Shown here one piece after another: positions 10,864 to 44,771 of a stretch of DNA of 64,000 nucleotides; position 1 is the first letter of the stretch; each line of letters starts with the position of its first letter. Below the pieces are notes generated by a model. The model was not told the origin of the DNA. It worked only from the letters and a program-made list of their open reading frames with translations, and did no database searches. The stretch spans positions 1-64,000 of the forward strand of contig CALJFB010000015.1 of NCBI GenBank assembly GCA_938073895.1, in the 5' to 3' direction. Position numbers and translations under genes: made by a program. Origin of the DNA: an uncultured Flavobacteriaceae bacterium (lineage in GTDB: Bacteria > Bacteroidota > Bacteroidia > Flavobacteriales > Flavobacteriaceae).

Positions 10864-10948
10864 TAGTTTTTTGTAACATTTTACAAGTCATTTTAATATA
10901 AACTCTTTAATATCTATAAATATTAAGGCTAACAAAAAGCCTTATATA

Positions 10949-12253
10949 CTAACTTACGGCAGCTTTATAAACCAGTAAACAGCGTTCTCTGGCTTCTTTA
11001 TGATCTACAATAGGTTTAGGATAAGTAAATTCTTGATAGTCTGGAACCCATTTTCTAATGTATTTGTGCGCTTTATCAAACTTATCTATTTGTGTGGTTG
11101 GATTAAAAATTCTAAAATAAGGCGATGCGTCTACACCAGATCCAGCAACCCATTGCCAATTCCCAACATTACTAGACATGTCGTAATCATGAAGTTTTTC
11201 GGCAAAATACGCTTCGCCTAAACGCCAATCTATAAGTAAATGTTTACACAAAAAACTACCCACAAGCATTCTAACACGATTATGCATAAAACCTGTGGCA
11301 TTTAATTGTCTCATTCCTGCGTCTACTAGTGGATATCCTGTTTTTCCTTCGCACCAGGCTTTAAATTCAGTTTCGTTATTACGCCATTCAATTCTATCGT
11401 ATTTTGGTTTAAAAGCATTTTTATATGTATGTGGAAAATGCCATAAAATTTGCATAAAAAATTCACGCCAAATTAATTCTTGCCAAAAGATTTCGTTGTT
11501 TTCTGCAATAGCTTTTTTTACCATTTTACGAATACTAACGGTTCCAAATCGTAAATGTGGTCCTAATTTAGATGTACTATCTAAAGCAGGGAAATTTCTT
11601 GTGTCTTCGTAAGTCTGAATTAATTTTGGATTTACAGTAAAAGCTTCAATGGGTTGATTTGATTTTTCAAAACCCATTTGGTTTAATGTTATGTTTGGTG
11701 CGTTTTTTAGATTAACTAAATTATTAAAAAGTGGTTCTGTTTTAAATTCATCTAACATTGTACCTTTAAAACGTGCTTTCCATTGTTTCATGTATGGCGT
11801 GTAAACCATGTAAGGTTTGCCATCTTTTTTAGTAATATCGTCTCGCTCGTTTATTACTTGATCTTTAAATGTTTTAAAATTAATGTTTTTTTGCTCTAAT
11901 AATTTAGCTATTTCTTTATCGCGATCTAAAGCATATGGCTCGTAATCGTGATTGGTATAAACCGTATCTATTGTGTAAGTCTCTAATAGTTGTTTGTATA
12001 TAGTTTCTGGTTTTCCGTAATAAAAAGCGATTGTACCAAGATTTTGGTTTTCTAATTTTTTTCTTAGATTTTGAAGCGTTTCGAATATAAAGGTAACTCT
12101 GGCATCGTTTTTTGGGAGTTTAGTCAGAATTTCTGAATCAAATATAAAAATAGGTAAGACTTTTTTATTAGAAGATAAGGCTTTAAATAATGCAACATTA
12201 TCGTCTAATCTTAAATCGCGTCTAAACCAAAATATATGAATTGCTTCTGTCAT
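10949..12253 (-). CDS. phrB: Deoxyribodipyrimidine photolyase, class I CPD type
   Basis: A 434-residue flavoprotein that repairs UV-made pyrimidine dimers using light. The N-terminal antenna domain begins IHIFWFRRDLRLDDNVAL (5-22). The FAD-binding and catalytic domain includes KLGPHLRFGTVS, a WxELIWREFF-type stretch, PLVDAGMRQLNATGFMHNR, and NVGNWQWVAGSGVDASPYF (about 362-380), with FRIFNP at 380-385. These are class I CPD photolyase features. It is the last gene of the photolyase/cryptochrome block (all minus strand). A 130-base gap separates it from the SRPBCC gene to its right, so it may have its own promoter. Confidence 0.93.
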   Translation of the reverse strand: MTEAIHIFWFRRDLRLDDNVALFKALSSNKKVLPIFIFDSEILTKLPKNDARVTFIFETLQNLRKKLENQNLGTIAFYYGKPETIYKQLLETYTIDTVYTNHDYEPYALDRDKEIAKLLEQKNINFKTFKDQVINERDDITKKDGKPYMVYTPYMKQWKARFKGTMLDEFKTEPLFNNLVNLKNAPNITLNQMGFEKSNQPIEAFTVNPKLIQTYEDTRNFPALDSTSKLGPHLRFGTVSIRKMVKKAIAENNEIFWQELIWREFFMQILWHFPHTYKNAFKPKYDRIEWRNNETEFKAWCEGKTGYPLVDAGMRQLNATGFMHNRVRMLVGSFLCKHLLIDWRLGEAYFAEKLHDYDMSSNVGNWQWVAGSGVDASPYFRIFNPTTQIDKFDKAHKYIRKWVPDYQEFTYPKPIVDHKEARERCLLVYKAAVS

Positions 12254-12383
12254 AAAAATTTTATTTTTTCTTTCTACAAACGCAGAAATCTTTTTATTAC
12301 TTCGTTTTAATACTATTTATAAAAATCACATTTTATTTAATGTTCTAATTTATACAACTTCAAATAATAATAATAGTAAAGTA

Positions 12384-12848
12384 TTAAAGGTATTTTCCAA
12401 AAATTGTTTCCAACTGTTTTGTTCTATATTTAAATATACTTTCTAGTTTTGGTTTAACTAATATAGGATGCACTAATTGGCCTAATAGTCCAAATGGCAC
12501 TTTATAATCTATAATATCTTCCATTTCTACGCCACCATCAATTTCTTTAATAAAATGCTTGTGATGCCAAAATGCATAAGGTCCATAAAGTTGTAAATCT
12601 ATAAAGTACTTTTTATCTTGGAATTGAGTGATTTCGCTTACCCATTTAGTTTTAAATCCAGGTAATGGTGTTACACTATATTGTATAACTTGTCCAGCAT
12701 ACATTTGTTTTTCTGCACCAGATATAATTTTCATATTCATTTCTGGTGGTGTTAATTTAGATAAATTTGCTGGGTTGCATAAAAAAGCCCATGCTTGATC
12801 TAAAGTTATGGGCAATTTTTGTTTTTTTTGAAATCGGTATATTTTCAT
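12384..12848 (-). CDS. SRPBCC family protein
   Basis: A 154-residue protein of the SRPBCC (START/Bet v1-like) superfamily, ligand-binding cyclase-like type. Start FQKKQKLPITLDQAWAFLCN and the following LSKLTPPEMNMKI are characteristic of a group found beside photolyase and SDR genes. It probably binds a hydrophobic small molecule; no catalytic residues can be assigned. It begins one base after the tspO stop codon, in one operon with tspO, the glutathione peroxidase and the SDR. A link to pigment or lipid protection under light is suggested only by position. Confidence 0.85.
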   Translation of the reverse strand: MKIYRFQKKQKLPITLDQAWAFLCNPANLSKLTPPEMNMKIISGAEKQMYAGQVIQYSVTPLPGFKTKWVSEITQFQDKKYFIDLQLYGPYAFWHHKHFIKEIDGGVEMEDIIDYKVPFGLLGQLVHPILVKPKLESIFKYRTKQLETIFGKYL

Positions 12849-12849
12849 T

Positions 12850-13311
12850 TTAATTATATATTACAATATAAGCATTTAAAGATGTGGCTAATACAGACCA
12901 AATCATATAGGGTAAAAGTAAGTAACTGTATTTGGGCTCTATTTTTTTACTAACAATATATAGGTAATAAACCACCGCAGTTAAGAGCAAAATGTTTATT
13001 AATCCTAACACAATAAAATGGTTATTAAAAAATATAAAATTCCACATAATATTAAAAATTACTTGTAATGTAAATGTAATTTTTATTTTTACTGAAGGCT
13101 TTTTACTAAATAATTTAGCTAATAAAACCGATAAGCAAATCATTATGCTAGTCCAAGCAATTCCAAAGAGCCAACCTGGTGGCGACCAAGGTGCTTTATT
13201 TAGATTTGTGTACCATTCTGTTTGTGGCCCATTATCCATTAGTAAACTTCCTAAGGCTAAACTTCCAAAGTTTATTATTAAGAAAATAATGAATAACTTT
13301 AGACTTTTCAT
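12850..13311 (-). CDS. tspO: TspO/MBR family membrane protein
   Basis: A 153-residue integral membrane protein with five predicted helices, homologous to the bacterial tryptophan-rich sensory protein and mitochondrial translocator protein. The first loop is aromatic-rich (Trp33, Trp42, Trp47, Trp53, with APWSPPGW at 40-47), which forms the ligand site for porphyrins in this family. TspO proteins bind and degrade or move tetrapyrroles in a light- and oxygen-dependent way, which suits the photolyase neighbourhood. It overlaps the glutathione peroxidase gene by 4 bases and so is translationally coupled to it. Confidence 0.93.
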   Translation of the reverse strand: MKSLKLFIIFLIINFGSLALGSLLMDNGPQTEWYTNLNKAPWSPPGWLFGIAWTSIMICLSVLLAKLFSKKPSVKIKITFTLQVIFNIMWNFIFFNNHFIVLGLINILLLTAVVYYLYIVSKKIEPKYSYLLLPYMIWSVLATSLNAYIVIYN

Positions 13312-13844
13312 TTTAAATGCTTTAAAATTTTAGAACTTTTAGGAGATGTAGTAGAATAGTAAAAATCTATTAATTGCCCATCTGGATTGACTAAATATTT
13401 TTGAAAATTCCATTTAACTGAAGAATTTTTTACACCATTTTTAGCTGAATTTGTTAACCATTTATAAAGTAAATGTTGGTTTGTACCTTTAACATCTACT
13501 TTTTCAGAAATTGTAAAATCTACACCATAATTTACGGCACAAAATTCTGAAATTTCTGATGCATTTCCAGGTTCTTGTTTTCCAAATTGATTACAAGGAA
13601 CTCCAATAACTTCTAATTTGTCTTTATGCTTAGTATATAATTCCTGTAACTCTTTATATTGTGGTGTAAATCCACATTTTGAAGCGACGTTTACAAAAAG
13701 AATGTACTTTCCTTTGTATTTAGATAAGTCTAAATTTTTACCTTGTAAGGTATTAATCTTAATATCGTAAATAGAGGTCGGTTTAGACGTGTTTGTGGAA
13801 ACTTTAGACCCTAAAGTTGCTAAAAATGCTTTAAAAGGATTCAT
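13308..13844 (-). CDS. Glutathione peroxidase (Cys type)
   Basis: A 178-residue thiol peroxidase that reduces hydrogen and lipid peroxides. The three family motifs are present: peroxidatic Cys57 in ASKCGFTPQY, the CNQFGKQEP block (84-92), and KWNFQKYLVN with Trp145 and Asn146. It uses Cys rather than selenocysteine, as most bacterial members do; these often take electrons from thioredoxin rather than glutathione. No signal peptide is obvious, although the first 12 residues are mildly hydrophobic. It is 4 bases from the upstream SDR and overlaps tspO downstream. Its presence supports an oxidative-stress role for the operon. Confidence 0.93.
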   Translation of the reverse strand: MNPFKAFLATLGSKVSTNTSKPTSIYDIKINTLQGKNLDLSKYKGKYILFVNVASKCGFTPQYKELQELYTKHKDKLEVIGVPCNQFGKQEPGNASEISEFCAVNYGVDFTISEKVDVKGTNQHLLYKWLTNSAKNGVKNSSVKWNFQKYLVNPDGQLIDFYYSTTSPKSSKILKHLK

Positions 13845-13848
13845 ATAA

Positions 13849-14532
13849 TTATATTTTAAAACTTACAATTCCACAGTCCATTTGGAATATTTGACCTGAT
13901 ATAGATGCGGCTTTGTCCGAAATTAGAAAAGCAGCCATATCAGCAACTTCTTCTGGAGCTAAGTATTTTTTTAATGGATGGCGTTCTTTCATGGCTTCTT
14001 CCATTTTTTCGTTACGTAACAACTTTGCAGCTAATTCTGTATCTGTAACTGTTGGAGCTATTGCATTAACTCTTATGGTTGGTGCAAATTCTGCTCCAAG
14101 AGATTTTGTTAAGCCTTCTACAGCACTTTTAGAAGCAGCAACACTTGCGTGAAAAGGCATTCCTAATTTTGCGGCAACAGTACTAAACAATACAATAGAT
14201 GGCTTAGTTCCGTTTTTTAATATGCTTAAATAGTGCTGTATTACTTTAACAGCTCCAATTACATTTATATTAAAATCGTTTTGGAAATCTTCTATTTTTA
14301 AACGTTTAAGTGGCTTTAGATTTATACTACCTGGGCAATATATAATACTATCTAAATGGTCTATATCGGGTAAATTGTCTTGTAAAACATCTATTCCGAA
14401 ATGGCTAACGTTTGGATGTTTAAAGTCTGGTTCTGTACGACTTAAGTTAATTATTTGGTGTGTATTGGCTAAGTTTTTAAGAATGGAATTCCCAATACCT
14501 TTACTACCGCCGACGATAAGTATGGTTTTCAT
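13849..14532 (-). CDS. SDR-family protein lacking the catalytic tyrosine
   Basis: A 227-residue short-chain dehydrogenase/reductase fold. The NAD(P) motif GGSKGIG is at 8-14, Ser117 is in place, and the C-terminal substrate region is normal (NAIAPTVTDTEL). The usual YxxxK is altered: Lys135 is kept in VAASKSAVEG, but the position of the catalytic Tyr is Val131. Classical SDR proton transfer therefore looks impaired, so the protein may bind nucleotide without normal turnover or use another residue. I read homologues from similar loci as having the same change, so it is probably a family trait rather than damage. It lies 4 bases before the glutathione peroxidase gene. Confidence 0.88.
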   Translation of the reverse strand: MKTILIVGGSKGIGNSILKNLANTHQIINLSRTEPDFKHPNVSHFGIDVLQDNLPDIDHLDSIIYCPGSINLKPLKRLKIEDFQNDFNINVIGAVKVIQHYLSILKNGTKPSIVLFSTVAAKLGMPFHASVAASKSAVEGLTKSLGAEFAPTIRVNAIAPTVTDTELAAKLLRNEKMEEAMKERHPLKKYLAPEEVADMAAFLISDKAASISGQIFQMDCGIVSFKI

Positions 14533-14591
14533 AACACTAATTTTTAGTTAAAGTATATTTGGCTTTATAGCCTAAAATGTAGAATAATCTT

Positions 14592-14831
14592 TTAAGATTT
14601 ATCTGGTCGTCCTCTCAAACGTTTTTCAATTTTCTGTTTAATAACAGTTAAACGTTTCATTAAGTCCATTAATTCTGGGTCTTTAGATTCTTTATAAAGA
14701 TCATTAATCCCTAAAATTAATTCTTTAGCTTCTCTAGACGATAAAATTCTATCGCTAGTTGTTTTAAAAGTATGTCTTCTACCTTCAAACTCTTCTGCGT
14801 GTTCTAGTAACGTTATTTTTTTTTTAGCCAT
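14592..14831 (-). CDS. Conserved small basic protein in the photolyase block
   Basis: A 79-residue, highly charged protein (many Lys, Arg and Glu), predicted to be mostly helical, with no cysteines, signal peptide or membrane segment. I do not recognise a named domain. Its ATG overlaps the folE stop codon (TAATG), so the two are translationally coupled, and it lies 59 bases upstream of the SDR gene. The tight coupling to GTP cyclohydrolase in a light-related operon suggests a role in that pathway or in DNA binding, but nothing in the sequence proves either. Confidence 0.7.
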   Translation of the reverse strand: MAKKKITLLEHAEEFEGRRHTFKTTSDRILSSREAKELILGINDLYKESKDPELMDLMKRLTVIKQKIEKRLRGRPDKS

Positions 14832-15517
14832 TAATTAAGATAGTTTTGTAATTCTACAATTTTAGCAGCATTGTTAAACGCGCCACCATAATACGTTGTA
14901 ACTGTCGAAGACGTATCGTCTTTTACACCTCTAGAAGATACACATAAGTGCTTTGCATCTATAATTACTGCAACGTCTTCTGTTTGTAAAATTGCTTTTA
15001 AATCTTCGGCAATTTGGTTTGTTAAACGTTCCTGTACCTGTGGACGTTTAGCGTAATACTGTACAATTCTATTTAATTTTGATATTCCAATAACCTTTCC
15101 AGAGGAAATATATGCTACGTGAGCTCTACCAATAATTGGTACAAAATGATGTTCGCAATTAGAATAAAACGTAATGTTTTTTTCTACAAGCATCTGATTG
15201 TAATTGTATTTATTGTCAAATAAAGCAATTTTTGGCTTATTTTTAGGGTTTAATCCAGAAAATATTTCATCAATGTACATTTTAGCCACTCTTTTTGGCG
15301 TACCTTTTAATGAATCGTCTGTTAAATCTAATCCAATTACATTCATTATATCCTCAAACAATAGAGCAATTTTTTCTTTTTTTTCTTCATCTGAAACTTT
15401 AAAAGCATCTGCTCTTAAAGGTGTCTGCAAACCTGTGTAAAGATGATCGTCTCCAATTTCTTCTGTATTAAAGTCCTTAAGACTATTGTCGTTTACCAAT
15501 GTTTGTTTGTTTTTCAT
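14831..15517 (-). CDS. folE: GTP cyclohydrolase I
   Basis: A 228-residue enzyme converting GTP to 7,8-dihydroneopterin triphosphate, the first step to folate and pterins. The zinc and catalytic residues are visible in SNCEHHFVPIIGRAHVAYI and HLCVSSRGVKD, and QERLTNQIAEDL is in place. I chose the ATG at 15517; an upstream TTG at 15559 would add 14 residues unlike the family N-terminus. Its place among four photolyase-family genes makes sense because many of these enzymes use methenyltetrahydrofolate as an antenna, so folE may supply that pterin. The 79-residue gene follows with a one-base overlap. Confidence 0.94.
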   Translation of the reverse strand: MKNKQTLVNDNSLKDFNTEEIGDDHLYTGLQTPLRADAFKVSDEEKKEKIALLFEDIMNVIGLDLTDDSLKGTPKRVAKMYIDEIFSGLNPKNKPKIALFDNKYNYNQMLVEKNITFYSNCEHHFVPIIGRAHVAYISSGKVIGISKLNRIVQYYAKRPQVQERLTNQIAEDLKAILQTEDVAVIIDAKHLCVSSRGVKDDTSSTVTTYYGGAFNNAAKIVELQNYLN

Positions 15518-15577
15518 GTAACTCTTTTTAATTGCTGTCCAATAACTTAATAAAGGCAAAGCAGATTTTATAAATAC

Positions 15578-15856
15578 CTAACGTTTAGATATTTTGTTGT
15601 GTGTAATTTGTCTTTGTCTGGTACATTTAAATCTACCATCTTCAAATTCACGTTTTTTACTATGTTTAGTAGCTCTTCCTTGTACTCTTTTGCGCCACAT
15701 TCTAAAACTGCTAGGTTTCATTTCTTTGCGCATTAGTTCAATAACTTCTTGTTCTTTAATTCCAAATTGAAATGTAATAGCATCAAAAGGTGTTCTGTCT
15801 TCCCAAGCCATTTCTATAATTCTATCTGTTTGTTCTATGCTAAAAATTTTATTCAA
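15578..15856 (-). CDS. TIGR03643 family protein
   Basis: A 92-residue protein matching the TIGR03643 family, found mostly in marine bacteria and of unknown function. Recognisable parts are DRIIEMAWEDRTPFDAI (about 11-27), the EQEVIELMRKEMKPSSFRMWRKR stretch and a strongly basic C-terminal tail. It has a helix-turn-helix-like start followed by positive charge, so nucleic-acid binding is possible. It overlaps the preceding 143-residue gene by 8 bases and is 60 bases upstream of folE, so it belongs to the same operon. Confidence 0.88.
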   Translation of the reverse strand: MNKIFSIEQTDRIIEMAWEDRTPFDAITFQFGIKEQEVIELMRKEMKPSSFRMWRKRVQGRATKHSKKREFEDGRFKCTRQRQITHNKISKR

Positions 15857-16280
15857 GATTTGTAAAATTATATTGTTTGTCGTATTCTACTTTTATGTGT
15901 GTTAATTTATCAAAAAACGCTTTATTTTCTTTAAATGTTTTGTTGTTTTTAAAGTTTACAAATCGTCCGTTTGCGTGAATACTTGTTCCATCTGTTTTGT
16001 AAATAACTAATTGGTATAAAGGTATTACCCAGGCAAAGTTTTTTTGTCCTTTTGTAATATGAACTATTATTCCATTAGGTCTTAGCTCTATATTACCATA
16101 ATTTACATCAGCTATTTTATTAATTACAGACGCTAAATTAGGGCTAACTTTATCTATTACCATTCTTTTGGAGCCAATTCCTTTTAATTTAATAGATTGA
16201 AAAAAAGTGTAAGCTTTTCCTACTTTATTATCTATTAAATTATTGTTCTCTTTATTAAAATGTGTTGTATTTAAAAGCAC
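15849..16280 (-). CDS. Conserved protein of unknown function in the photolyase block
   Basis: A 143-residue soluble protein with no cysteines and no signal peptide or membrane helix. The middle is beta-rich (IELRPNGIIVHITKG, then FAWVIPLYQLVIYKTDG), somewhat like small PH- or SRPBCC-unlike beta domains; I do not recognise a family. It is the first gene of the run toward folE and overlaps the TIGR03643 gene by 8 bases. A -7-like element and two palindromes sit directly upstream (16300-16354), so it probably heads a regulated transcript. Confidence 0.72.
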   Translation of the reverse strand: MLLNTTHFNKENNNLIDNKVGKAYTFFQSIKLKGIGSKRMVIDKVSPNLASVINKIADVNYGNIELRPNGIIVHITKGQKNFAWVIPLYQLVIYKTDGTSIHANGRFVNFKNNKTFKENKAFFDKLTHIKVEYDKQYNFTNLE

Positions 16281-16299
16281 TCCTATTTTTTTTGTTTAT

Positions 16300-16354
16300 C
16301 AAATATACATTATGTTTAAACATTAATAAATAGTGTTAAACAAAATTTAACACT
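16300..16354 (-). promoter_or_regulatory. Promoter with two palindromes before the folE-side operon
   Basis: On the minus strand TATATTTG (16307-16300) fits the Bacteroidota -7 element, 20 bases before the ATG at 16280. A 12-base perfect palindrome (ATGTTTAAACAT, 16312-16323) lies just upstream within the -33/-7 spacer, and a second inverted repeat with 9-base arms (16332-16340 and 16346-16354, 5-base spacer) covers or precedes the -33 region. The layout resembles repressor operators. The regulator is unknown; the TetR-type protein at 24782-25438 is a candidate by position only. Confidence 0.5.
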
Positions 16355-16407
16355 TAATTATACTATTTAATTAAATGCAATTATTAAACTTTAGTAGTTA
16401 TAAGGCT

Positions 16408-17883
16408 TTAGCTTGAAGTTCTATTACTAAATGTATGTCTAGATAAAATTCTGTAGGCTTCTTTTTTTACTAGCGGTTTGTCTTTGTAAGACCAAAGAGA
16501 ATCGCTAGCAAATTTGCGCGATTTTTTTTCGTTTATTATTGGAAATGGATAATCTTTACCTAATTCGAAACCAGATAATTGTTGATCAAAGTAACTCATT
16601 TTTGAAGGTTCGTGTATGCTTGCTGCATCTAGATTTGCTAACTCTGGAACCCATTTTTTTATAAATATGCCTTCTGGATCGTGTTCTACACTATTTTTAA
16701 TTGGATTATATATGCGTAACATATTTATGCCAGTTTCTCCAGCTTGCATTTGTATTTGCGGATAATGTATGCCTGGTTCAAAATCTAAAAATAGAGATGC
16801 TAAATGGTTGCTTAAATCCTGCCAAGGTTGCCAAAGATTATGCGTAAAGAAAGAAACGACTAAAGCACGCATTCTAAAATTTAAATAACCAGTTTGATTT
16901 AAACAACGCATACATGCATCTACCAAAGGAAAACCTGTTTGTCCGTTTTTCCAGGCGTTTTGAAACTCTAAGTTAATTGGTTTATCTAAATCATGATAGC
17001 CTATATTTACACTTTTAAACTCCATTTTATGTTCCATTTCGAACTTTTGAATAAAATGAGCTTGCCAACGTAATCTAGATATAAACCCATTTAAAGGTCT
17101 TTTATATATTGTAGTTTCTTTTAAAGTATACGCTGCATTAATAACTTCTTTAATAGATAAATTTCCCCATGCTATGTAGGGCGAAATTCTACCACAGCTT
17201 TTTCTTGCTAATTCTGGCTTACTTATATGGCTGCTGTATTTTTTAAAGCGTCCATTAAAAAAACTATTTAGATATTTTAATCCAGTAGTTCTTCCGCCTT
17301 TTTGAAAATTTGTAGAAATTTCTGTTTCTAAAGCTATTGTTTCAAAATATATCTCTAGGTTTTTAATAATAATAAGATCTAAAAGTTGATTTGATTTTGG
17401 TTGAAATTTAAACTCAGGTGTGTTCATAAAAATTTCCCAATCTTTTACCCAATTAGTTCTATTTTTTAAACCTCTTTTTATAGCGTTATTTAGGTTTTCG
17501 GACCATAAAATGGAATTTGTTTTACAGTAAGTCTTTAATTTTAAATCTCTTTTAAATGTTGAATTTATTCCTGTTTCTTGATGCGAAAATATATGTGTAA
17601 TAGTGTAAAACCGTTGTAACGTTTCTAGGGTTGAAATTATATTGTTTTTAATAACTAAAACCTTTGTAGAATAGGGCAGAAGTTGTTTGTTTATGTCTTC
17701 TAAAGATTGTTTTACAAAATCCCAATGTCTTTTACTATAATGCAAATCGTCTAAAAGAAAGTCTTCAAAAAGATATATAAATAGAGTTTTTGTACCAGAT
17801 TTTAAAGCATTAAAAATGGCTTCGTTATCGTGTAAGCGTAAATCGCGTTTAAACCAGACTATATGTAAGTTTTCTTTATTAAT
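16408..17883 (-). CDS. Photolyase/cryptochrome-family flavoprotein, non-ATG start
   Basis: About 491 residues of the photolyase family. The FAD-binding domain includes [51 protein letters not shown] and a long [17 protein letters not shown] block, typical of a flavobacterial branch distinct from the CPD type at 10949. Conceptual translation upstream of the first conventional start (TTG at 17745) continues without a stop to 17925 and contains the obligatory N-terminal motif [19 protein letters not shown], so the real protein begins earlier. No in-frame ATG, GTG or TTG exists there; the best candidate is ATT at 17883 (second choice ATT at 17910). Either an unusual start or a mutated ATG is implied. 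Lesion specificity is unknown. Confidence 0.82.
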
Positions 17884-17937
17884 TTTTTTGTTTTTATTTG
17901 TTTCTGAAATGTTTTCTATATGTCTTTATTATACGCT

Positions 17938-17957
17938 ATTGTTTCAAATTAAACAAT
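17938..17957. repeat. Inverted repeat upstream of the non-ATG photolyase gene
   Basis: Arms of 7 bases (17938-17944 and 17951-17957) with a 6-base spacer. The half-site TTGTTT/AAACAA resembles the TGTTTAA half-sites at 16312 and 25473. It lies about 55 bases before the likely start at 17883 and overlaps a near-consensus -7 element on the minus strand. An operator role is possible but the region is very AT-rich. Confidence 0.35.
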
Positions 17958-18068
17958 TTAAAAAAACGTTTTACTTTACTATAATATGTAGCTTTTATAG
18001 CTCATTATTTAAATTTATCTAGGTTGCTTAAAACGAAACATTATACTAAAATAATGAATAAAGAAACA

Positions 18069-19601
18069 CTAATAATTATCTGGATGTTCTATAATGTCTT
18101 TAGCTTTTAGCTTTATTTTATGTAAATCTTCTGGATTCATTTTATTAAGCAAACTATACATCATTTTCATTCTAAAATTATCTTGTAAATAAGCTCTTTT
18201 ATCATCTAAGAAGTTCCAATATAAACTGTTAAATGGACAAGCATTATCTGTTACTTTTTCCTTTACATTGTAACTGCAATTACTACAGTAATTTCCCATT
18301 TTATTTATATAGCTACCGCTAGAAACATATGGTTTAGTTGCTATTTTTCCTCCATCTGCAAATTGACTCATACCACGCGTGTTTGGTAATTGTACCCATT
18401 CTACAGCATCTACATAAATGCCCAAATACCAAGCGTCTACTTGGTCTGGATCAATTTGTGTAAGTAGTGCATAATTTCCGGTAACCATTAAACGTTGTAT
18501 ATGGTGTGCGTAACTATTATCTAAAGAGTTATTTATAGCTTTGCTAAGGCAATTCATTTTGGTTTTACCTGTCCAGAAAAAATCTGGTAATTTATTAGTG
18601 TTTTCTAAGTAGTTTAACGTTTTATATTCTGGCATTAAATGCCAATACATACCACGCATATACTCGCGCCAACCAATTATTTGTCTTATAAATCCTTCTA
18701 CTTGAGAGATGTTTATGTTATCTCCATGTTTGCGCCAATAATTTAAAACTGTTGTAACAATATCTTTAGGTGAAATTGCTTTTATATTCATGGCAAAAGA
18801 CAATCTAGAATGGAACAAATAAGCTTGTTCTGTATGCATTGCATCTTGATAGTCGCCAAAATGAATTAATAAATGCTCGCAAAAGTATTTTAATTGTTCT
18901 AAGGCTTGAGTTCTATTTATGGGGTAACTAAAATTATGGTCTTTTAAATTACCAATTGTTTTTATGTTCTCTTTTTTTATTAATTCTAAAATGTCCGAAA
19001 TTGGATTGTTAAAATTTTTAAAAGGTGGAATAGCATCTTTTTCGTTCCATTTATTACGATTGCTTTTATCAAAATTCCATTTTCCACCTTCTGGTTGTTT
19101 TCCTACAATTAGAATATCGTGTTTTTTTCTCATGTCACGATAGAAATTCTCCATAAGAAATTGTTTTTTTCCTTTAAAGAATTCGCTTAAATCACTTCTT
19201 TTTGTATAAAAATGTTCTGTACAATAAACTTCTGTTTTAATAGATATACTTTTAGTAAACAAGTTAAGTTGTTTATCTAATCTAAACTCGTCTGGTAATT
19301 GGTATTCAAATTTTTCTATTTGATTTTCATTAAATAGAAATTTAAGATTTTCTGTTAAATCTTGTGTGTTGTTTTTGTGGTCTAAATTAAAATAAATAAT
19401 ATTATGACCTTCAGATTCTAGCCATTTAGAGAAATTACGCATGGCACTAAAAAAACCAACTATTTTTTGAATATGATGAGTTACATAGTTTGTTTCTTGT
19501 TTCATTTCAAAAATACAATAGGTTATATTTTTGTCTTTAGTTTTGTACCAAGAATGCTTAGTGTTTAGTTGGTCTCCTAATATTAATCTTAATGTTTTCA
19601 A
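18069..19601 (-). CDS. FeS-BCP cryptochrome/photolyase (PhrB-like, probable (6-4) photolyase)
   Basis: A 510-residue member of the iron-sulfur bacterial cryptochromes and photolyases. It starts LRLILGDQLNTKHSW (4-18), the signature of this branch. Four cysteines at 351, 439, 442 and 455 match, one residue shifted, the 4Fe-4S ligands of Agrobacterium PhrB (350, 438, 441, 454). The FAD region includes GFIRQIIGWREYMRGMYW. PhrB repairs (6-4) photoproducts and uses a lumazine antenna; I infer similar chemistry. The gene lies between the CRY-DASH gene (105 bases upstream) and the second photolyase. Length is normal for the family. Confidence 0.93.
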   Translation of the reverse strand: MKTLRLILGDQLNTKHSWYKTKDKNITYCIFEMKQETNYVTHHIQKIVGFFSAMRNFSKWLESEGHNIIYFNLDHKNNTQDLTENLKFLFNENQIEKFEYQLPDEFRLDKQLNLFTKSISIKTEVYCTEHFYTKRSDLSEFFKGKKQFLMENFYRDMRKKHDILIVGKQPEGGKWNFDKSNRNKWNEKDAIPPFKNFNNPISDILELIKKENIKTIGNLKDHNFSYPINRTQALEQLKYFCEHLLIHFGDYQDAMHTEQAYLFHSRLSFAMNIKAISPKDIVTTVLNYWRKHGDNINISQVEGFIRQIIGWREYMRGMYWHLMPEYKTLNYLENTNKLPDFFWTGKTKMNCLSKAINNSLDNSYAHHIQRLMVTGNYALLTQIDPDQVDAWYLGIYVDAVEWVQLPNTRGMSQFADGGKIATKPYVSSGSYINKMGNYCSNCSYNVKEKVTDNACPFNSLYWNFLDDKRAYLQDNFRMKMMYSLLNKMNPEDLHKIKLKAKDIIEHPDNY

Positions 19602-19706
19602 ATGCGTTTATACGTTTAGTTGTTCTCTTATTTATTATGGATATTTCCAGTAATGGAAAGCTATGTTGGTCTATATTTTATTAATGTAACAGATTTTTAT
19701 TTAATT

Positions 19707-21020
19707 TTAAAAAAGTGTTTCTTGTAACCATAATTTTTGGTATTTCCCATTGCTATCATAGCGATCTGCCTGTAGTTTTACATTAAACGTTCTGTTTCTT
19801 GGATCGTTACCAACACCAGAAACATACATCCAATTTCCGTAATTACTATGTACATCGTAATCTATAAGTAAACTTTCAAAATAGCTTGCGCCAATACGCC
19901 AATCTAATTCTAGATTTTTAGCAAAATAGCTTGCTACATTTTGTCTGCCACGATTACTCATAAAACCTGTATGTTTTAATTCTAACATATTAGCATTTAC
20001 AAACGGTTCTTTGGTTTGCCCATTAATCCACTTATTTATTTCTAATTGGTTTATTTTCCAATCGTAATTTTTTTGTAAAATGCCACCAATTTTAAATAGC
20101 TTATTATTGTGTTTAAGCGATATATATTTGAAATAATCGCGCCAAATTAATTCGAAAATTAACCAATAAGTCGATTCGTTTTTAAAATGAATTTTCTCAA
20201 ATTCTTTAATTTTCCAATAAATAGTTTTAGCCGAAATGCTTCCATTAGCTAACCAACACGAGAATTTTGAACTGTAATCTGTACCAATTAATCCGTTTCT
20301 TGTTTTTTTGTAAAAGCCAAGTTTCTTAGTTTCAAAAAAATAATTTTCTAAACGTTTTAAAGCTTCATTTTCTCCACCTTTAAAGGGAAATGCAGTTTTT
20401 GTAGAAGGTGTAATTTCTTCTAAACCTAAATAGTTAAGTGTTGGTGTTTTGGTTGTATTATTTACTAAATTAGTTTTGGGTAAAACAACTTCTAATTTAG
20501 TTATAGTTCTAATTCTTGATTCTTTTTCGCATTTTTTTCTGAATTCTGTAAATACGCGTGGAATGTCTTGAAATTGGTAAGGAATATCTTCTGGATGAAA
20601 TAGGAACTGATCATATGTTTCAATAAAATCAATATTTTGAGGTAAAACAGATTTAGCTTCTAATATACTATTTGCTTCTTCTTGTGTCCATTCGGACTGA
20701 TAAAACACAGCATTAAAGTTATGCGTTTTGTATAAACTATTTATTGCTTGTGCGGTATTCTTATTGTAAATAAATAAAGAGATATTTAGGGTTTCTAAGT
20801 TAGCTTTAAGTTCTTGGACCGTTTCTATTAGAAATTGTGCTCTATATTTATCTGTTTTCTTAAATCCGTATTTATTTGTACTAAATTGTTTAGGATCGAA
20901 TACATATATGGCAATTACATTATTGCTAGACGCTATAGCATTTAAAAGCGATTTGTTATCGTTTACACGTAAATCGTTTTTAAACCATACTAAGCTTGTT
21001 TTATTTTGTTTCTTCTGCAT
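19707..21020 (-). CDS. DASH-family cryptochrome
   Basis: A 437-residue flavoprotein of the CRY-DASH branch, which repairs dimers in single-stranded DNA and may sense blue light. The N-terminal [18 protein letters not shown] begins the antenna domain. The diagnostic C-terminal stretch [20 protein letters not shown] (with [12 protein letters not shown]) is present, as are [18 protein letters not shown] and the [16 protein letters not shown] block. Length fits the family without the plant-type extension. The upstream DUF2256 gene overlaps its first 31 bases, indicating translational coupling. Confidence 0.95.
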
Positions 21021-21130
21021 TTTTCGCTACAATATTTTACGTTTTCCCAGTTTTTCTCCCATTTTTTTCGCCAAGTAAAAGGAAGTTTACATGTTTGGCA
21101 GATTTTTGTTGGAAGATGTTGTTTTTTCAA
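20990..21130 (-). CDS. DUF2256 zinc-ribbon protein (46 residues)
   Basis: A small gene that overlaps the start of the CRY-DASH gene by 31 bases in another frame. It starts with TTG at 21130 and stops with TAG at 20990-20992. The translation has the DUF2256 layout: [20 protein letters not shown] followed by [19 protein letters not shown], with cysteines at 11, 14, 34 and 38 for one zinc ion and the invariant tryptophans. DUF2256 proteins are commonly encoded beside photolyases; their function is unknown. The strong pattern match makes it credible despite its length. Confidence 0.88.
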
Positions 21131-21260
21131 ATTAAGTTTCTTTTGTTATAGGTAAAATTAAATTTTATATAATCTTTATTTTTTACTATTGTATAAATTA
21201 TGATAAACGAATTAACGTGCTTTTAAATTATAACTTAAGGTCTCAAATTTAATTTTAAAA

Positions 21261-22688
21261 CTATTTTGCGTTGGCTATTTTTTTTATCATTCCATTAAAT
21301 ATAAAACCATGAAAAGGTACAACACTATACCAATATAATCTACCAGCTAATCCTTTTGGTCTAAACGTTGCACGTTGATAAACTTTGCCTTTTACAACTT
21401 TAAATTCAAGCCAAGCTTCTCCTGGTAATTTCATTTCTGCAAAAAGAATTAATCTTTTTTGTTCTTTATCTGCTACTAAAACACGCCAAAAATCTAAGGC
21501 GTCTCCTGTTTTTAATTCAGTTTTATTTGTTCGTCCTCTACGTAAGCCAATACCACCAAATAATTTGTCTATATAGCCTCTAAACTTCCATAATATTGTG
21601 CCATAATACCAGCCGTTTTCTCCTCCAATTGCCCATATTTTTTCTAAGGTTTTTTCTTCATCTAAAACCTTTAACTCTTTAATATCTTTAAAACAGCCAT
21701 ATTTTGGAACCTTTAAATATTTTGTAGATGCTTGTTTGTTGTTTGTACCGTTTATAAACGCGTCTTTCCAACTAGATGTTATACTGTTAGTTTCAATCTT
21801 TACAAAAGCAAGTTCTATGGCGCTTTTATAATTCATGGGTTCTACGTCTAAAATGGTATTAATTTTACTTTTTATACCAATAATTTCTATGCCCATGCTA
21901 TTAACTAAAGATGCAGCTAATTTGTAAGATGTAGAGGTTACAAAATATAGCCAGTAACTAGATAGTTTTGGTGTCATAACAGGAACTGTTAAGATATAGC
22001 GTTTTAGTTTGCGGACTTCAGAGAATTTTAAAAGCATTTGCTTATACGTCAAAATTTCTGGGCCAAAAATATCGTGAGACGTGTTAAATAATTCTTTTTT
22101 ATTTAAGGCTTTGGTTAAAAAAGCTAAAACATCTCTTACGCTTATAGGTTGCGTTTTTGTGTCTAGCCATTTTGGGGCAACCATTACAGGAAGTTTTTCT
22201 ACTAAATCTCTAATAATTTCGAAACTTGCGCTTCCAGATCCTACTATTATTCCAGCTTTAAATACTGTTAATCCATAAATTTTAGACTGCAATGTATGTT
22301 CTACATTTTTTCGAGATAATAAGTGTTTAGATAATTTTGTATCGTTTGTAATGCCGCTTAAATAAATAACTTGTTTTGTTTGCGTCGTTTCAATATACTT
22401 TTTAAAATTAACAGCGCAATCTTCTTCCATTTTGTGAAATTGATCAATGGAATTTGACATAGAATGTATTAAATAATAAGCTATATCTATATCTTTAGGA
22501 ATATTTTTTAATGTATCTGGTTTTAAAAAATCGGCTTCTACAACTTGAATTTTATCTTCTTCGGCGTATTTTTTTTGAGTTCTTAGTTTTCCTCTAACAG
22601 TACAAACAATGGTATGACCTTGCTCTAAAAGAATTGGAATTATTCTTTTACCAATGTAGCCTGTTGCGCCTGTTATTAGAATTTTCAT
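21261..22688 (-). CDS. NAD(P)-binding epimerase-like protein with DUF2867 domain
   Basis: A 475-residue two-domain protein. Residues about 1-290 are an extended SDR/NmrA-like Rossmann domain (GATGYIG at 7-13, YYLIHSMS near 71-78). Residues about 320-470 are DUF2867, with WAIGGENGWYYGTILWKFRG and the LRRGRTN and PGEAWLEF blocks. The fusion is common in marine bacteria, often near photolyases. The reaction is unknown; redox chemistry on a lipid or pigment is possible. It is 53 bases downstream of the flavin reductase and upstream of DUF2256/CRY-DASH, so it is probably part of the same unit. Confidence 0.9.
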   Translation of the reverse strand: MKILITGATGYIGKRIIPILLEQGHTIVCTVRGKLRTQKKYAEEDKIQVVEADFLKPDTLKNIPKDIDIAYYLIHSMSNSIDQFHKMEEDCAVNFKKYIETTQTKQVIYLSGITNDTKLSKHLLSRKNVEHTLQSKIYGLTVFKAGIIVGSGSASFEIIRDLVEKLPVMVAPKWLDTKTQPISVRDVLAFLTKALNKKELFNTSHDIFGPEILTYKQMLLKFSEVRKLKRYILTVPVMTPKLSSYWLYFVTSTSYKLAASLVNSMGIEIIGIKSKINTILDVEPMNYKSAIELAFVKIETNSITSSWKDAFINGTNNKQASTKYLKVPKYGCFKDIKELKVLDEEKTLEKIWAIGGENGWYYGTILWKFRGYIDKLFGGIGLRRGRTNKTELKTGDALDFWRVLVADKEQKRLILFAEMKLPGEAWLEFKVVKGKVYQRATFRPKGLAGRLYWYSVVPFHGFIFNGMIKKIANAK

Positions 22689-22741
22689 AGTTACAATTCT
22701 GTGTTGCCATTTATTATTTATTAGATAATAATTGGTAACCT

Positions 22742-23371
22742 TTAATGCTCAATGTTAATTGATTTTGGTCTTTGGTAATCTAAACGTTTTTCTATTTTAG
22801 GAAGTGCGTAAGTATCCAGACCAATTATAGTTGCAACATCTGCTTTACTAAGATTTATTAATCCGTCTTTTTCTATAATATCTTTATTAACGTGTATGTG
22901 CTGAATTTCGCCAATTACTAGAATAGTTCCATTTTCTTTAATTGGATATTCTGTAACGTATTTCATTTCTAGTTGTACCGGAGCATCTTTTACAAATGGC
23001 GCTATGCAATTTTCTTTTACTTCTGATTTTAGGCCAGTCATATCAAATTCTGAAGTGTTTTCATTATAAGCAGCAGATGTATGATGCGCGTCTTCTATAA
23101 TAGATTTATGAATGTGGTTTATGGTATAGATGCCTGTTTCTTTAATATTATTATAGGTATGTCTAATTACAGTTGTTGGTCTGCAAAAAAAGCCTAGTAA
23201 TGGTGGATTGCTTCCAATATGTGTAACAGAACTAAATACGGCTACATTTTGCTGACCAGTTTTAGAACTTGTTCCAATTAGATTAGCACTTTTAAAACCA
23301 GACGAACTATTAATTAAATTTATTTTATAAAAACGTTCTAATGTTTCAAAATCTGCCTTAGAAAAAGTCAT
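22742..23371 (-). CDS. Flavin reductase family protein (FMN-binding split barrel)
   Basis: A 209-residue protein of the flavin-reductase-like split-barrel family, which binds FMN and reduces it or related flavins with NAD(P)H. The pattern NVAVFSSVTHIGSNPPLLGFF (about 42-62), then YTINHIHKS, matches the family. No signal peptide is seen. The start lies one base after the ABC1-kinase-like stop region, so the two are one operon. A reduced-flavin supply for the flavoproteins of this block is a reasonable inference, not a demonstration. Confidence 0.9.
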   Translation of the reverse strand: MTFSKADFETLERFYKINLINSSSGFKSANLIGTSSKTGQQNVAVFSSVTHIGSNPPLLGFFCRPTTVIRHTYNNIKETGIYTINHIHKSIIEDAHHTSAAYNENTSEFDMTGLKSEVKENCIAPFVKDAPVQLEMKYVTEYPIKENGTILVIGEIQHIHVNKDIIEKDGLINLSKADVATIIGLDTYALPKIEKRLDYQRPKSINIEH

Positions 23372-23372
23372 A

Positions 23373-24683
23373 TTAAAGGTTTTTGTAATTGTTAATTTTA
23401 ATGTTTTGAGCTTTTAAATCAAACATTAAATTATAAAGTCCAAAAAAGGTTCTATTAATATATATAAAGTGTTTAGAACCTCTATTTCCATTCATTTTTC
23501 TAAGTTCTGTACTTTTGCTGTAACGTTGACCAAGTTCTGTAATGGCATCAAAGAATTTTGGATCTGAAAAATCAAAAGTATCGCCATGAAATGGTTGAGT
23601 AAATAAACTTAACATTTCGTGAAATAAATCTGTAAAAAACACAGTTTCTTCAGGAGTATCTTCTTCTTTTAATATTTCTAACTGATACATTTTATTGTTA
23701 AAGAAGTCTAGGTTTTCTATGTTTTCTTTAACAGCTAGTTCAAAATATGGGATATAAAAATCTTCTGGAATAATTTTCATACACCCAAAATCTAAAGCAA
23801 TTAGATTTGCATCTTTAGAAACTAAGAAGTTTCCTGGATGTGGATCTGCGTGTACTTTTTTAAGAATATGCATTTGATACATGTAAAAATCCCAAAGTGC
23901 TTGACCAATTTTATTAGAGTTTTCTTGGCTTGTATTATGTGCTGTAAATTCAGATAAATGTTCGCCTGTCATCCAATCCATAGTAATAATACGTTCAGAA
24001 GATAAATCTTCGTAATATCTTGGGAATTGTAAATTTGGAATGTGCTGGCAAGCATCTACTATTTCTTTAGATTGCTTAACTTCTAGAATATAATTAGTTT
24101 CTTCTACTAATTTGTCTTCAACTTCTTTAAAATATTTTCCAGAATCTTTTCCTTTAATATTAAACATTTTAATAGCAATTGGTTTTACCATTGCTAAATC
24201 GCTAGAAATACTTTCGGCAACACCAGGATACTGAATTTTAACAGCAAGTCTTTTTCCATCTTTTTCTGCTAAATGCACTTGTCCAATACTAGCAGCATTT
24301 ACAGAATTTAGATTAAATGTGTCGTAAATTTGACTTGGTAATTTACCAAAATATTTTTTAAATGTTTTTTCTACAAGTGGCGCAGATAATGGCGGTACAG
24401 AAAATTGTGCTAAAGAAAATTTTTCTACATAAGCTTTAGGCAATATGCTTTTTTCCATACTTAGCATTTGTGCAACTTTTAAGGCGCTACCTTTAAGTTG
24501 TTTTAAGCCGTCGTAAATATCTTCTGCATTGTTTTCGTTTAAACGTTGTTTAGCTTCATCTGCAGTTTTGGTAATCTTATCACCATAATATTTTAGGTAG
24601 TTAACACCAACTTTAGCTCCTGTGGATACCAGTTTTGATGCTCTTGATATTTTTCCAGTAGGTATGCTGTCTATAGTTTTCAT
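23373..24683 (-). CDS. AarF/ABC1/UbiB kinase-like protein
   Basis: A 436-residue atypical kinase of the ABC1/UbiB/ADCK family, which supports quinone or prenyl-lipid metabolism and is linked to photo-oxidative stress in plastids and bacteria. The family's KxGQ motif appears as KVAQ (69-72) with Ala for Gly. The ATP lysine is in AVKIQYPGV, and the catalytic and metal sites appear in HADPHPGNF and ALDFG. No membrane helices are evident at the C-terminus. It is transcribed after the TetR-type gene, from which a long hairpin separates it (24714-24791), and directly before the flavin reductase. Confidence 0.9.
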   Translation of the reverse strand: MKTIDSIPTGKISRASKLVSTGAKVGVNYLKYYGDKITKTADEAKQRLNENNAEDIYDGLKQLKGSALKVAQMLSMEKSILPKAYVEKFSLAQFSVPPLSAPLVEKTFKKYFGKLPSQIYDTFNLNSVNAASIGQVHLAEKDGKRLAVKIQYPGVAESISSDLAMVKPIAIKMFNIKGKDSGKYFKEVEDKLVEETNYILEVKQSKEIVDACQHIPNLQFPRYYEDLSSERIITMDWMTGEHLSEFTAHNTSQENSNKIGQALWDFYMYQMHILKKVHADPHPGNFLVSKDANLIALDFGCMKIIPEDFYIPYFELAVKENIENLDFFNNKMYQLEILKEEDTPEETVFFTDLFHEMLSLFTQPFHGDTFDFSDPKFFDAITELGQRYSKSTELRKMNGNRGSKHFIYINRTFFGLYNLMFDLKAQNIKINNYKNL

Positions 24684-24713
24684 AGGACTTTTATTAAGGT
24701 AATAAATTAAAAT

Positions 24714-24791
24714 AATGGGATAATTTGTTTAGCTATTTCAAAGACACTTAAAACAAACCAAACTTATTGAGATAGCTTTAATTATCCCATT
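24714..24791 (-). terminator. Long interrupted hairpin at the end of the TetR-type gene
   Basis: Outer arms of 12 bases (24714-24725 with 24780-24791) and an inner 9-base helix with one G-T pair (24731-24739 with 24769-24777). The right outer arm spans the stop codon of the TetR-type gene, and the minus-strand sequence after the left arm is T-rich. It is most likely a terminator; an operator or attenuator for the ABC1 gene (start 24683) is the alternative. Confidence 0.5.
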
Positions 24792-25438
24792 TTTATTTTT
24801 TCTTTGAAAATAAATTTACCAAAATCTATTAAGCTTTTTAATGGTGCTACATCTAAAACATCAAAACTTGTGTTAACCGCTTTTTCTATGAAAATGTCTG
24901 TTTTTTCAAAAGAAGTAGACGTATCGTCTAACCAAAATTTTAGTGTAATTAATAATTGTAACCAAGCTGTTTCTGTTAAACCTCTATTTTGAATTTTTTC
25001 TAATGTATCTTGCTTAACATCTATTAACTCTATACCTAACTCTTTAATGTAATGAGAAAAACTAGATTTTAAGCTACCTAAAGATTGTAAAGACTTTAAA
25101 CTATTTTTATGTTGGTCTAATGCATAAACCACATAACTTCTGTTAGCAGTAAGGTTTTCAAAAAACGTAAAATAAAAACTTAATAATTTATCTCTAGGCT
25201 CGAAATTAGAATAGTCTTCACTGCTATGTAATGCAGTTATTGTATTATCGTAAAAGGCTTTAAAAACATTTTTTTCTAAAGCATTAAATGATGCAAAATG
25301 TTCGTAGAATTTAGATTCTTCAAAATTGTTGTGTTTTGCAAAAGCATAAACTGTTTTAGGTTGTTGGTTATGCTCTAAAACATAATCCATGTAAAACCCA
25401 TATAAATCTTGTGATGTAATATTTTTTTTCTTAGCCAT
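24782..25438 (-). CDS. TetR-type transcriptional regulator
   Basis: A 218-residue protein with the length and helical pattern of TetR regulators. The N-terminal part (about 8-55) has an HTH-like arrangement with KTVYAFAKHNNFEESKFYEHF, matching helices 2-3 of the TetR DNA-binding domain in a divergent form; the rest is all-helical, as in a ligand-binding domain. The family in flavobacteria often accompanies an ABC1 kinase gene. It may control this locus; candidate palindromes lie at 25473-25502 in front of it and at 16312-16354. Ligand and targets are unknown. Confidence 0.78.
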   Translation of the reverse strand: MAKKKNITSQDLYGFYMDYVLEHNQQPKTVYAFAKHNNFEESKFYEHFASFNALEKNVFKAFYDNTITALHSSEDYSNFEPRDKLLSFYFTFFENLTANRSYVVYALDQHKNSLKSLQSLGSLKSSFSHYIKELGIELIDVKQDTLEKIQNRGLTETAWLQLLITLKFWLDDTSTSFEKTDIFIEKAVNTSFDVLDVAPLKSLIDFGKFIFKEKIKMG

Positions 25439-25795
25439 TAGTTCTCTAATTTGATGGTATAAAGGTACAAAATGTTTAATTATTTTTTAATCTGATTAAA
25501 CAAAAATTAACAAATCATTATGCATTTGCTAAATAGACAACTTTAAATAGTATTGATTTTTACTAATTTACATCTCAAAATAGTCTTTAAATTTAAGAAT
25601 ATGCCATGTTTATGGTATTGATATTAACTGAAATTTGTTAAAAAAAGAGTAGGATTTATTAAGTTAGAAATATCATAATAGCTCTAATAATCTTTTATTT
25701 AAAACCTATATAAACCATTTTATAGTTTTGTTAACATTTAAGGTTTTTATTATGATTAAATTTATACTTCAAAATTAAATTTGATAATATATACT
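25439..25795. other. Divergent intergenic region, TetR-type gene / DUF2911
   Basis: About 357 AT-rich bases between divergent genes. It holds an inverted repeat with 8-base arms (TGTTTAAT at 25473-25480 and ATTAAACA at 25495-25502, 14 bases apart) 35 bases before the TetR-type start, a possible autoregulatory operator. A -7 element for the DUF2911 gene lies at 25776-25783. I see no small ORF or RNA gene here. Confidence 0.5.
25776..25783 (+). promoter_or_regulatory. Candidate -7 element for the DUF2911 gene
   Basis: TAAATTTG matches the Bacteroidota -7 consensus, 12 bases before the ATG at 25796, so the leader would be very short. No TTG is seen at the -33 distance. Confidence 0.5.
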
Positions 25796-44705: not shown

Positions 44706-44771
44706 ATAATAGTGTTTAAATTTATTTAAATAAATTTAAACACTTAATAGACTCGGTTTATTACTAGTTTA

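Follow-up and report, generated by a model that had tools for sequence, protein, structure and literature searches.

How does a bacterium come to keep four different members of the photolyase/cryptochrome family side by side, and what would switch them on together? The question is raised by a stretch of 64,000 nucleotides (positions 1 to 64,000 of contig CALJFB010000015.1, assembly GCA_938073895.1; hereafter the window, with all block coordinates referring to it) from an uncultured Flavobacteriaceae bacterium, the genome of which (G000) is 92.7% complete. An initial annotation had listed about 17 genes between positions 10949 and 25438, and 17 were recovered there, every one on the minus strand. 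Equally, its proposal of a coordinated light-damage module is supported by a conserved gene order and by one operator-like sequence at two promoters. The block can be seen as two operons under one regulator, most likely the CarH/LitR-type protein of G000, within a vitamin B12-dependent light regulon, a reading which, from sequence and by analogy with described systems, is given a probability of roughly three in four.

The putative operator is a 30-base-pair (bp) inverted repeat, TGTTTAAY-N14-RTTAAACA. Its long form, TTTGTTTAAY-N14-RTTAAACATTTT, is found in the upstream regions of two block genes, coding for a regulator of the TetR_C_23 family (24782-25438) and for a 143-residue protein, s143 (15849-16280), where it is mostly followed by a TAnnTTTR box; the -7 promoter consensus of Bacteroidota is TAnnTTTG. 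Ahead of the TetR-type gene, operator 1 (25469-25504, minus strand) contains the core TGTTTAA-N16-TTAAACA at 25473-25502 without mismatch and is directly followed by the -7 box TACCTTTA (25460-25467, minus strand). Ahead of s143, operator 2 (16309-16344, minus strand) has its core at 16313-16342, a second pair of half-sites overlapping it at 16293-16322 and, after the operator, the -7 box TATATTTG (16300-16307, minus strand). The geometry is that of an inverted repeat with a 16-bp spacer and one extra half-site 10 bp upstream, with the operator beginning 49-77 bp (about 60 bp) ahead of the TetR or s143 start codon.

Conservation of this arrangement was followed in a survey of 149 genomes of the family, one per genus, with s143 as the probe; homologues of s143 occur in 93 of them, and 39 loci besides that of the window, with a score of at least 113 bits, form the s143-anchored set, the figures from which describe s143-bearing loci only. 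With up to four mismatches allowed over the 20 specified bases, the operator was found upstream of the TetR-type gene in 44/44 loci and upstream of s143 in 47/53. Within the 39 loci the figures are 24/32 (at most one mismatch) and 32/32 (at most four) for TetR, and 26/37 and 32/37, respectively, for s143. For none of the remaining 15 block genes does it appear in more than one locus (ABC1 1/44, flavin reductase 1/37, SDR-DUF2867 1/44, the rest 0), the gene for the cryptochrome-like protein CRYx, with a start codon that could not be assigned, contributing five upstream regions only. Mononucleotide-shuffled upstream regions gave 11 matches in 1940 at up to four mismatches and none in 1940 at up to two, while in the window the long pattern matched three times within three mismatches (0.78 expected; the third match overlaps the second) and the 14-base core four times within one mismatch (0.34 expected). 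Because the operator stands at TetR and s143 and hardly ever at the other genes, the block looks like two co-regulated operons, 25438-16408 and 16280-10949, the genes of each being presumably co-transcribed. A terminator-like hairpin (10924-10944, minus strand) directly follows operon 2, the region totalling 8 such sites against 5.3 expected, and a sigma-70-type promoter scan of the block returned 83 sites against 83.8 in shuffles, that is, no excess. Two candidates were set aside. Counting the short half-palindrome TGTTTAAACA proved too unspecific, though the count was raised at TetR and s143, and the full spaced pattern was used instead; the palindrome at 44713-44742 (TGTTTAA...TTAAACA), which is fully self-complementary and has a tRNA-like stretch on one side and, on the other, the 3' end of a gene on the opposite strand, is probably a terminator and not an operator.

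The same sequence recurs outside the block. The best sites of the whole genome (0-2 mismatches) precede the TetR-type gene, s143, a second gene for the 79-residue block protein s79 and a gene for a CIA30-family protein; with up to three mismatches 14 sites in total were counted against 19 in the control, which is no excess. The CIA30 and second s79 genes lie far from the block, at L210 (G000:C43) and L211 (G000:C40). Furthermore, a core site with one mismatch stands between the divergent proteorhodopsin and beta-carotene dioxygenase genes of G000, with the -7-like TAGATTTG inside the repeat; the random expectation from a Markov model is 0.00125 per 200 bp. Across the 149 family genomes, 151 sites with at most one mismatch were tallied in 89 genomes, compared with 10 matches of the reversed-pattern control, and they precede TetR-ABC1, photolyase, folE, fasciclin, CarH and carotenoid operons as well as proteorhodopsin. 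In some loci (L144, L148, L165, L167 and others) the TetR-ABC1 pair is divergent from the Hsp90 gene htpG with the operator between them, and in several genomes that have no TetR there the operator persists at htpG. At the level of the class, 58 sites were tallied in 45 of 295 genomes against 14 control matches, five of the sites coming from the family itself. Twenty of these loci were inspected, most of them chosen because the site was exact and three belonging to the family. The neighbours in at least 15 are CarH, crt genes (in some cases behind a gene for an extracytoplasmic function (ECF) sigma factor), rhodopsin (three), fasciclin, folE or s79; Pfam confirmed the rhodopsins and two of the sigma genes. 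The ECF sigma gene stands between operator and crt genes in other families of the class (L248 and L253, by Pfam; L258, by eye).

Which protein would read the operator? A CarH candidate is encoded away from the block beside crtI-crtB (P0001, G000:C10:15953-16774) and combines a MerR_1 with a B12-binding_2 domain (PF13411 and PF02607, both above cut-off). It carries the recognition helix RIWEKRY, the Wx9EH motif as WQTNTITPAHEH and the sequence ENEVHELA, in which the histidine is kept and the last position is A, not G or P; Wx9EH and the histidine of D/ExHx2G are the defining CarH motifs in the available portion of PMC9304148. Its best solved matches are the CarH structures 3whp and 5c8d (E 5e-9 and 6e-9), one alignment to a CarH/LitR chain spans both the DNA-binding and the B12 parts, and an adenosyltransferase that makes adenosylcobalamin (AdoCbl) is present in G000. 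The operator arm TAAACA fits the CarH half-site TnnACA, published operators being tandem 11-bp direct repeats nnnnTnnACAn (PMC9304148, same portion). The operator also occurs at the CarH gene itself or at crtI, by tally in 22 of 24 CarH-anchored loci with a RIWE or RMWE helix at up to two mismatches and in 16/24 at up to one.

In the CarH-crtI gap, 14 of 20 loci hold the repeat (up to five mismatches) with a -7-like box inside it, and the box likewise sits inside at proteorhodopsin, whereas at TetR and s143 it follows the repeat. Such a varying position is what would be expected of an operator, and the repeat is taken as one and not as a core promoter. It is very improbable that the repeat is instead the core promoter element of a dedicated sigma factor, which would then be the source of the link to light: the -7-like box after the repeat and the ECF sigma genes behind the site in several outside families (two by Pfam) could be understood in this way, yet the spacing to the box is variable, from after the repeat at TetR/s143 to inside it at crtI and proteorhodopsin, and the repeat is symmetrical, its two arms changing in pairs, which favours a protein dimer.

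A connection between CarH and the operator is further suggested by a second group of CarH proteins with the recognition helix RKWE[TS]RY. Counted near CarH at up to two mismatches of 14, a level at which the chance rate was not computed, TGTTTAA-type sites are found in 34 of 38 RIWE/RMWE loci, TGTC-type sites in none and neither in four, while seven RKWE loci have no TGTTTAA-type site, TGTC-type sites in five and neither in two. The half-site thus tracks the helix, becoming TGTCnAA where CarH has RKWE[TS]RY. The change extends to the block: in G038 (RKWETRY) the site reads TGTCTAA/TTAGACA at TetR and TGTATAA/TTAGACA at s143, the spacing being unchanged, and in G066 (RKWETRY) the TetR site reads TGTCTAA/TTAAACA; the TetR proteins of both are ordinary orthologues (296 and 304 bits). 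In RKWE genomes (L273-L276, L278-L280), carH is divergent from a fasciclin-domain gene, in most with TGTC-type repeats between the two. With a little more belief than doubt, it is proposed that Bacteroidota have a CarH of their own kind that would read an inverted two-turn operator, that one widespread regulon would comprise photorepair, carotenoids, proteorhodopsin, s143, s79 and DUF2805, and that the step from RIWE to RKWE would have re-coded TGTTTAA to TGTCnAA regulon-wide in one clade.

A number of observations weigh against this attribution to CarH or narrow its reach. The operator is an inverted repeat and the tandem 11-bp direct-repeat array was not found, so that the geometry differs from that of known CarH operators. 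In G000 the CarH start codon is accompanied by a weak core site with two mismatches, and the CarH-crt cluster holds no long-pattern site within three mismatches. The gap between the operons yielded no terminator-like site, so that operon 1 could run into operon 2. As for the helix counts, of the 38 RIWE/RMWE loci 14, among them 12 of the 34 positives, had been fetched through their sites, which leaves 24 CarH-anchored loci, mostly from block-bearing genomes; the TGTC variants were defined after two RKWE loci had been seen; the seven RKWE loci, for which no tree was built, seem to form a single clade, which would amount to few independent events; and in a mixed case, L043, the right half at TetR is TTAGACA, although the CarH hit in its genome, G046, is an ordinary one of 285 bits. 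Outside the s143 loci, a site-anchored sample of 80 loci from some 100 sites gave 81 sites (one, in G000, with two mismatches). For 55 of them a member of the photolyase/TetR-ABC1/carotenoid/CarH/fasciclin/CIA30 set lies within 300 bp, and for 26 none does; the set was compiled after a first look and without a matched control. Neighbours of the 26 include an Hsp90 (HtpG) gene in ten cases and a GLPGLI-type gene in five. Finally, 36 of the 120 family genomes (of 149) that have CarH, taken as a score above 140 bits, have no site within one mismatch, and G079 (81% complete) and G147 (73%) have two sites each with CarH not found.

To the same side belong the findings for the TetR-type protein. If genomes are treated as independent, CarH is present in 84/89 site-bearing against 36/60 other genomes (p 2.9e-7) and TetR in 70/89 against 25/60 (p 5.4e-6); where a genome has at least two sites, the association with TetR (41/45 against 54/104, p 2e-6) is sharper than that with CarH (43/45 against 77/104, p 0.0015). 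Correlation alone does not choose between the two. The TetR-type protein could accordingly be the regulator itself, binding the repeat, repressing its own operon and operon 2 and sensing a small-molecule product of light or oxidative damage; its gene stands first behind the best operator, as is often the case for autoregulated TetR repressors, and in G079 an exact site directly precedes TetR. This assembly is, however, in about 610 pieces, and the genomes that separate the two proteins speak differently: 16 of 28 genomes with CarH and no TetR keep the site, some in two to four copies (G050, G065, G105, G106), and among the three with TetR and no CarH the complete one, G059 (99% complete, one contig), is without a site. 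The five site-bearing genomes that have no CarH comprise three with a single one-mismatch site and two incomplete assemblies. In addition, the site precedes CarH or crtI in many loci, and in G038 the half-sites have changed beside an ordinary TetR and a divergent CarH. The separating cases weakly favour CarH over TetR; regulation by the TetR-type protein is considered unlikely, and it is more probably one of the targets of the light switch than its sensor.

Independently of the regulator, the block is common to many genera in an arrangement beyond chance. The named relatives among the s143 loci are Flavobacteriaceae, and two cultured species, Bizionia echini and Gelidibacter algens, carry the block; all 17 genes are retained in 12 of the 39 loci and at least ten genes in 33. 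A random neighbourhood in related genomes, which would have spoken against the module, is not what is seen, as gene order is collinear with the window in 36/39 loci, a count that includes the trivially collinear L051 with s143 alone; the exceptions are one extra s79 copy (L031) and two short rearranged contigs (L067, L069). Because the DUF2256/CRY-DASH/FeS-BCP/CRYx cassette is missing in 8/39 loci with the remainder from TetR to the photolyase kept, the block consists of a stable backbone and a removable photolyase cassette. The missing cassette would also fit genes that were neighbours by common inheritance only and formed no light regulon; against this stands the operator common to two promoters and to remote carotenoid, rhodopsin and photolyase genes, and of all explanations considered this one is held the least probable. 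Lower-scoring s143 homologues, 20 of the 53 examined (L070-L089), are found in a different setting: 19 adjoin an argS-like gene (by eye), 15 have s143 ahead of an SDR-DUF2867 gene, and none of the stretches contains a photolyase gene of the query set, which suggests a joint function of s143 and SDR-DUF2867 away from the photolyase block. Rhodopsin-like genes were seen by eye in four of these 20 loci.

Operon 1, read on the minus strand, begins with the TetR-type gene, identified by family search as were the ABC1/UbiB-type kinase (23373-24683) and the flavin reductase-like protein (22742-23371) that follow. The SDR and DUF2867 proteins of the initial annotation are both present, but as a single protein, the NAD-binding SDR being fused to DUF2867 (21261-22688, family search). 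A DUF2256-type protein of 46 residues (20990-21130), named by eye without a family-library scan and with homologues in 25/39 loci, overlaps the start of the CRY-DASH gene (19707-21020), which is followed by the FeS-BCP or PhrB-type (6-4) photolyase homologue (18069-19601) and, as the last gene, CRYx (16408-17883). Operon 2, also on the minus strand, begins with s143, which has a GTG start, and continues with DUF2805/TIGR03643 (15578-15856), FolE, the GTP cyclohydrolase I (14831-15559), s79 (14592-14831), an SDR (13849-14532), a Cys glutathione peroxidase (13308-13844), TspO (12850-13311), an SRPBCC-like protein (12384-12848; Polyketide_cyc, below the Pfam cut-off) and, as the last gene, a class I/III-like cyclobutane pyrimidine dimer (CPD) photolyase homologue (10949-12253).

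The four photolyase/cryptochrome-family genes announced by the initial annotation are indeed there and mutually distinct, a class I-like photolyase, CRYx, FeS-BCP and CRY-DASH, and no further members were found in the genome outside the block (PF00875 in three places, all in the block; PF04244 in one). The CPD photolyase homologue matches the solved chains 4u63 (E 1.6e-88) and 1owl (E 4.7e-87), and its best equivalog models, TIGR03556 and NF007955, remain below their own cut-offs. CRY-DASH membership is given by TIGR02765 (487.6 bits, cut-off 317). The FeS-BCP homologue (PF04244, 247 bits; E 5e-161 to 7ykn) has the four [4Fe4S] cysteines, those of YCSNC...AC by sequence and alignment to 7ykn and the fourth by eye. 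Some loci (L031, L033, L056 and others) have a different FeS-BCP type in the same slot, with a score near 250 bits where others reach about 800 or more; it looks as though an exchange of types had taken place on the spot. CRYx is only remotely related to its nearest solved chains (E 1e-36) and longer than its TTG-start open reading frame of 445 residues; the frame is open to 17925, no ATG, GTG or TTG lies near the aligned N-terminus, and ATT at 17881-17883 is the likeliest start. In photolyases an asparagine faces the flavin N5; aligned to the nearest solved chains, CRYx has a histidine at this position, and PGIH[YF]PQ[IL]QM is found in 26 of 28 orthologue rows, in which two organisms occur twice.

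The two small proteins gave nothing above cut-off in NCBIfam and Pfam. For s143 a PH-like barrel is predicted with good model confidence (predicted local distance difference test score 86): PH-domain chains occupy the top of the structural ranking (best Z 10.0, 3.4 A over 117 residues; best Foldseek E 0.014), and the sequence comparison with solved structures gave three matches, the best with E 0.55, taken as chance. The shared fold names no function. The model of s79 consists of three helices, and its gene is present in tandem copies in a number of loci. By position, s143 as the first gene behind operator 2 and s79 through a paralogue elsewhere in G000 that carries the operator, both would be members of the regulon.

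Taken together, one regulator would bind TGTTTAAY-N14-RTTAAACA over or beside the -7 box of both operons. By analogy with the CarH proteins of Thermus, Bacillus and Myxococcus, AdoCbl-loaded CarH would in the dark occupy the operator and obstruct RNA polymerase, and light would break the Co-C bond, release CarH and turn the genes on; binding and repression by CarH, with light and B12 as the signal, are here inferred from these systems. Switched on together would be the four photolyase-family proteins with FolE, the redox and tetrapyrrole/flavin stress genes, carotenoids and proteorhodopsin. If this is true, one B12 photoreceptor joins photorepair, photoprotection and rhodopsin phototrophy in a major bacterial group of surface waters. 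As flavobacteria are regarded as largely reliant on external B12, their light response would then hinge on B12 supply. The operator also provides a ready list of target genes, unknown proteins included, and light sensing by non-phototrophic Bacteroidota becomes a directly testable question.

Parts of this picture have been described before, as far as the portions of the cited studies available to us go. A photolyase proximity cluster has been described as enriched in rhodopsin-bearing Flavobacteriia (ISME J 2018, PMC5932025), the available text of that study not containing the words MerR or operon; operator and regulator are added by the present analysis. A study of a Chryseobacterium with light-induced carotenoids states that genes of a car or lit operon were looked for without success (PMC7064467), terms on Bacteroidota or photolyases were not found in the cobalamin-photoreceptor discovery paper (PMC11796333), and among the open-access papers searched none, by title and abstract, deals with a CarH operator, or a regulon of this kind that includes photolyases or proteorhodopsin, in Bacteroidota. 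While the flavobacterial photolyase cluster and the Pseudomonas LitR sets are known already, the open-access papers searched gave no sign of the operator, of the two-operon split or of a connection with CarH, carotenoids and rhodopsin in Bacteroidota, all of which appear to be new. In Vibrio cholerae blue light induces photolyase/cryptochrome operons through a circuit of sigma-E/ChrR and a MerR protein (PMC5241685), a likeness in operons drawn from description, not from gene order or operators. The light-induced regulon of the Pseudomonas class II LitR, with phrB, folE, cryB, an SDR gene and ufaM (PMC9758184), is under a LitR-family repressor and resembles the flavobacterial set in its photolyase, cryptochrome, FolE and SDR genes. 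That LitR, however, has a LOV photoreceptor as partner and binds TGTACA-N12-TGTACA, whereas the G000 protein keeps Wx9EH and the axial histidine of the B12 sensor. With the CarH/LitR regulons of Thermus, Bacillus megaterium and Myxococcus (PMC9304148) the proposed one has in common the MerR and B12 domains, Wx9EH, RxWE(K/R)RY, crt neighbours, TnnACA half-sites and the overlap with the promoter. It differs from them in the inverted TGTTTA-N18-TAAACA that takes the place of tandem 11-bp direct repeats, and in its putative targets, which here include two photolyase operons and proteorhodopsin.

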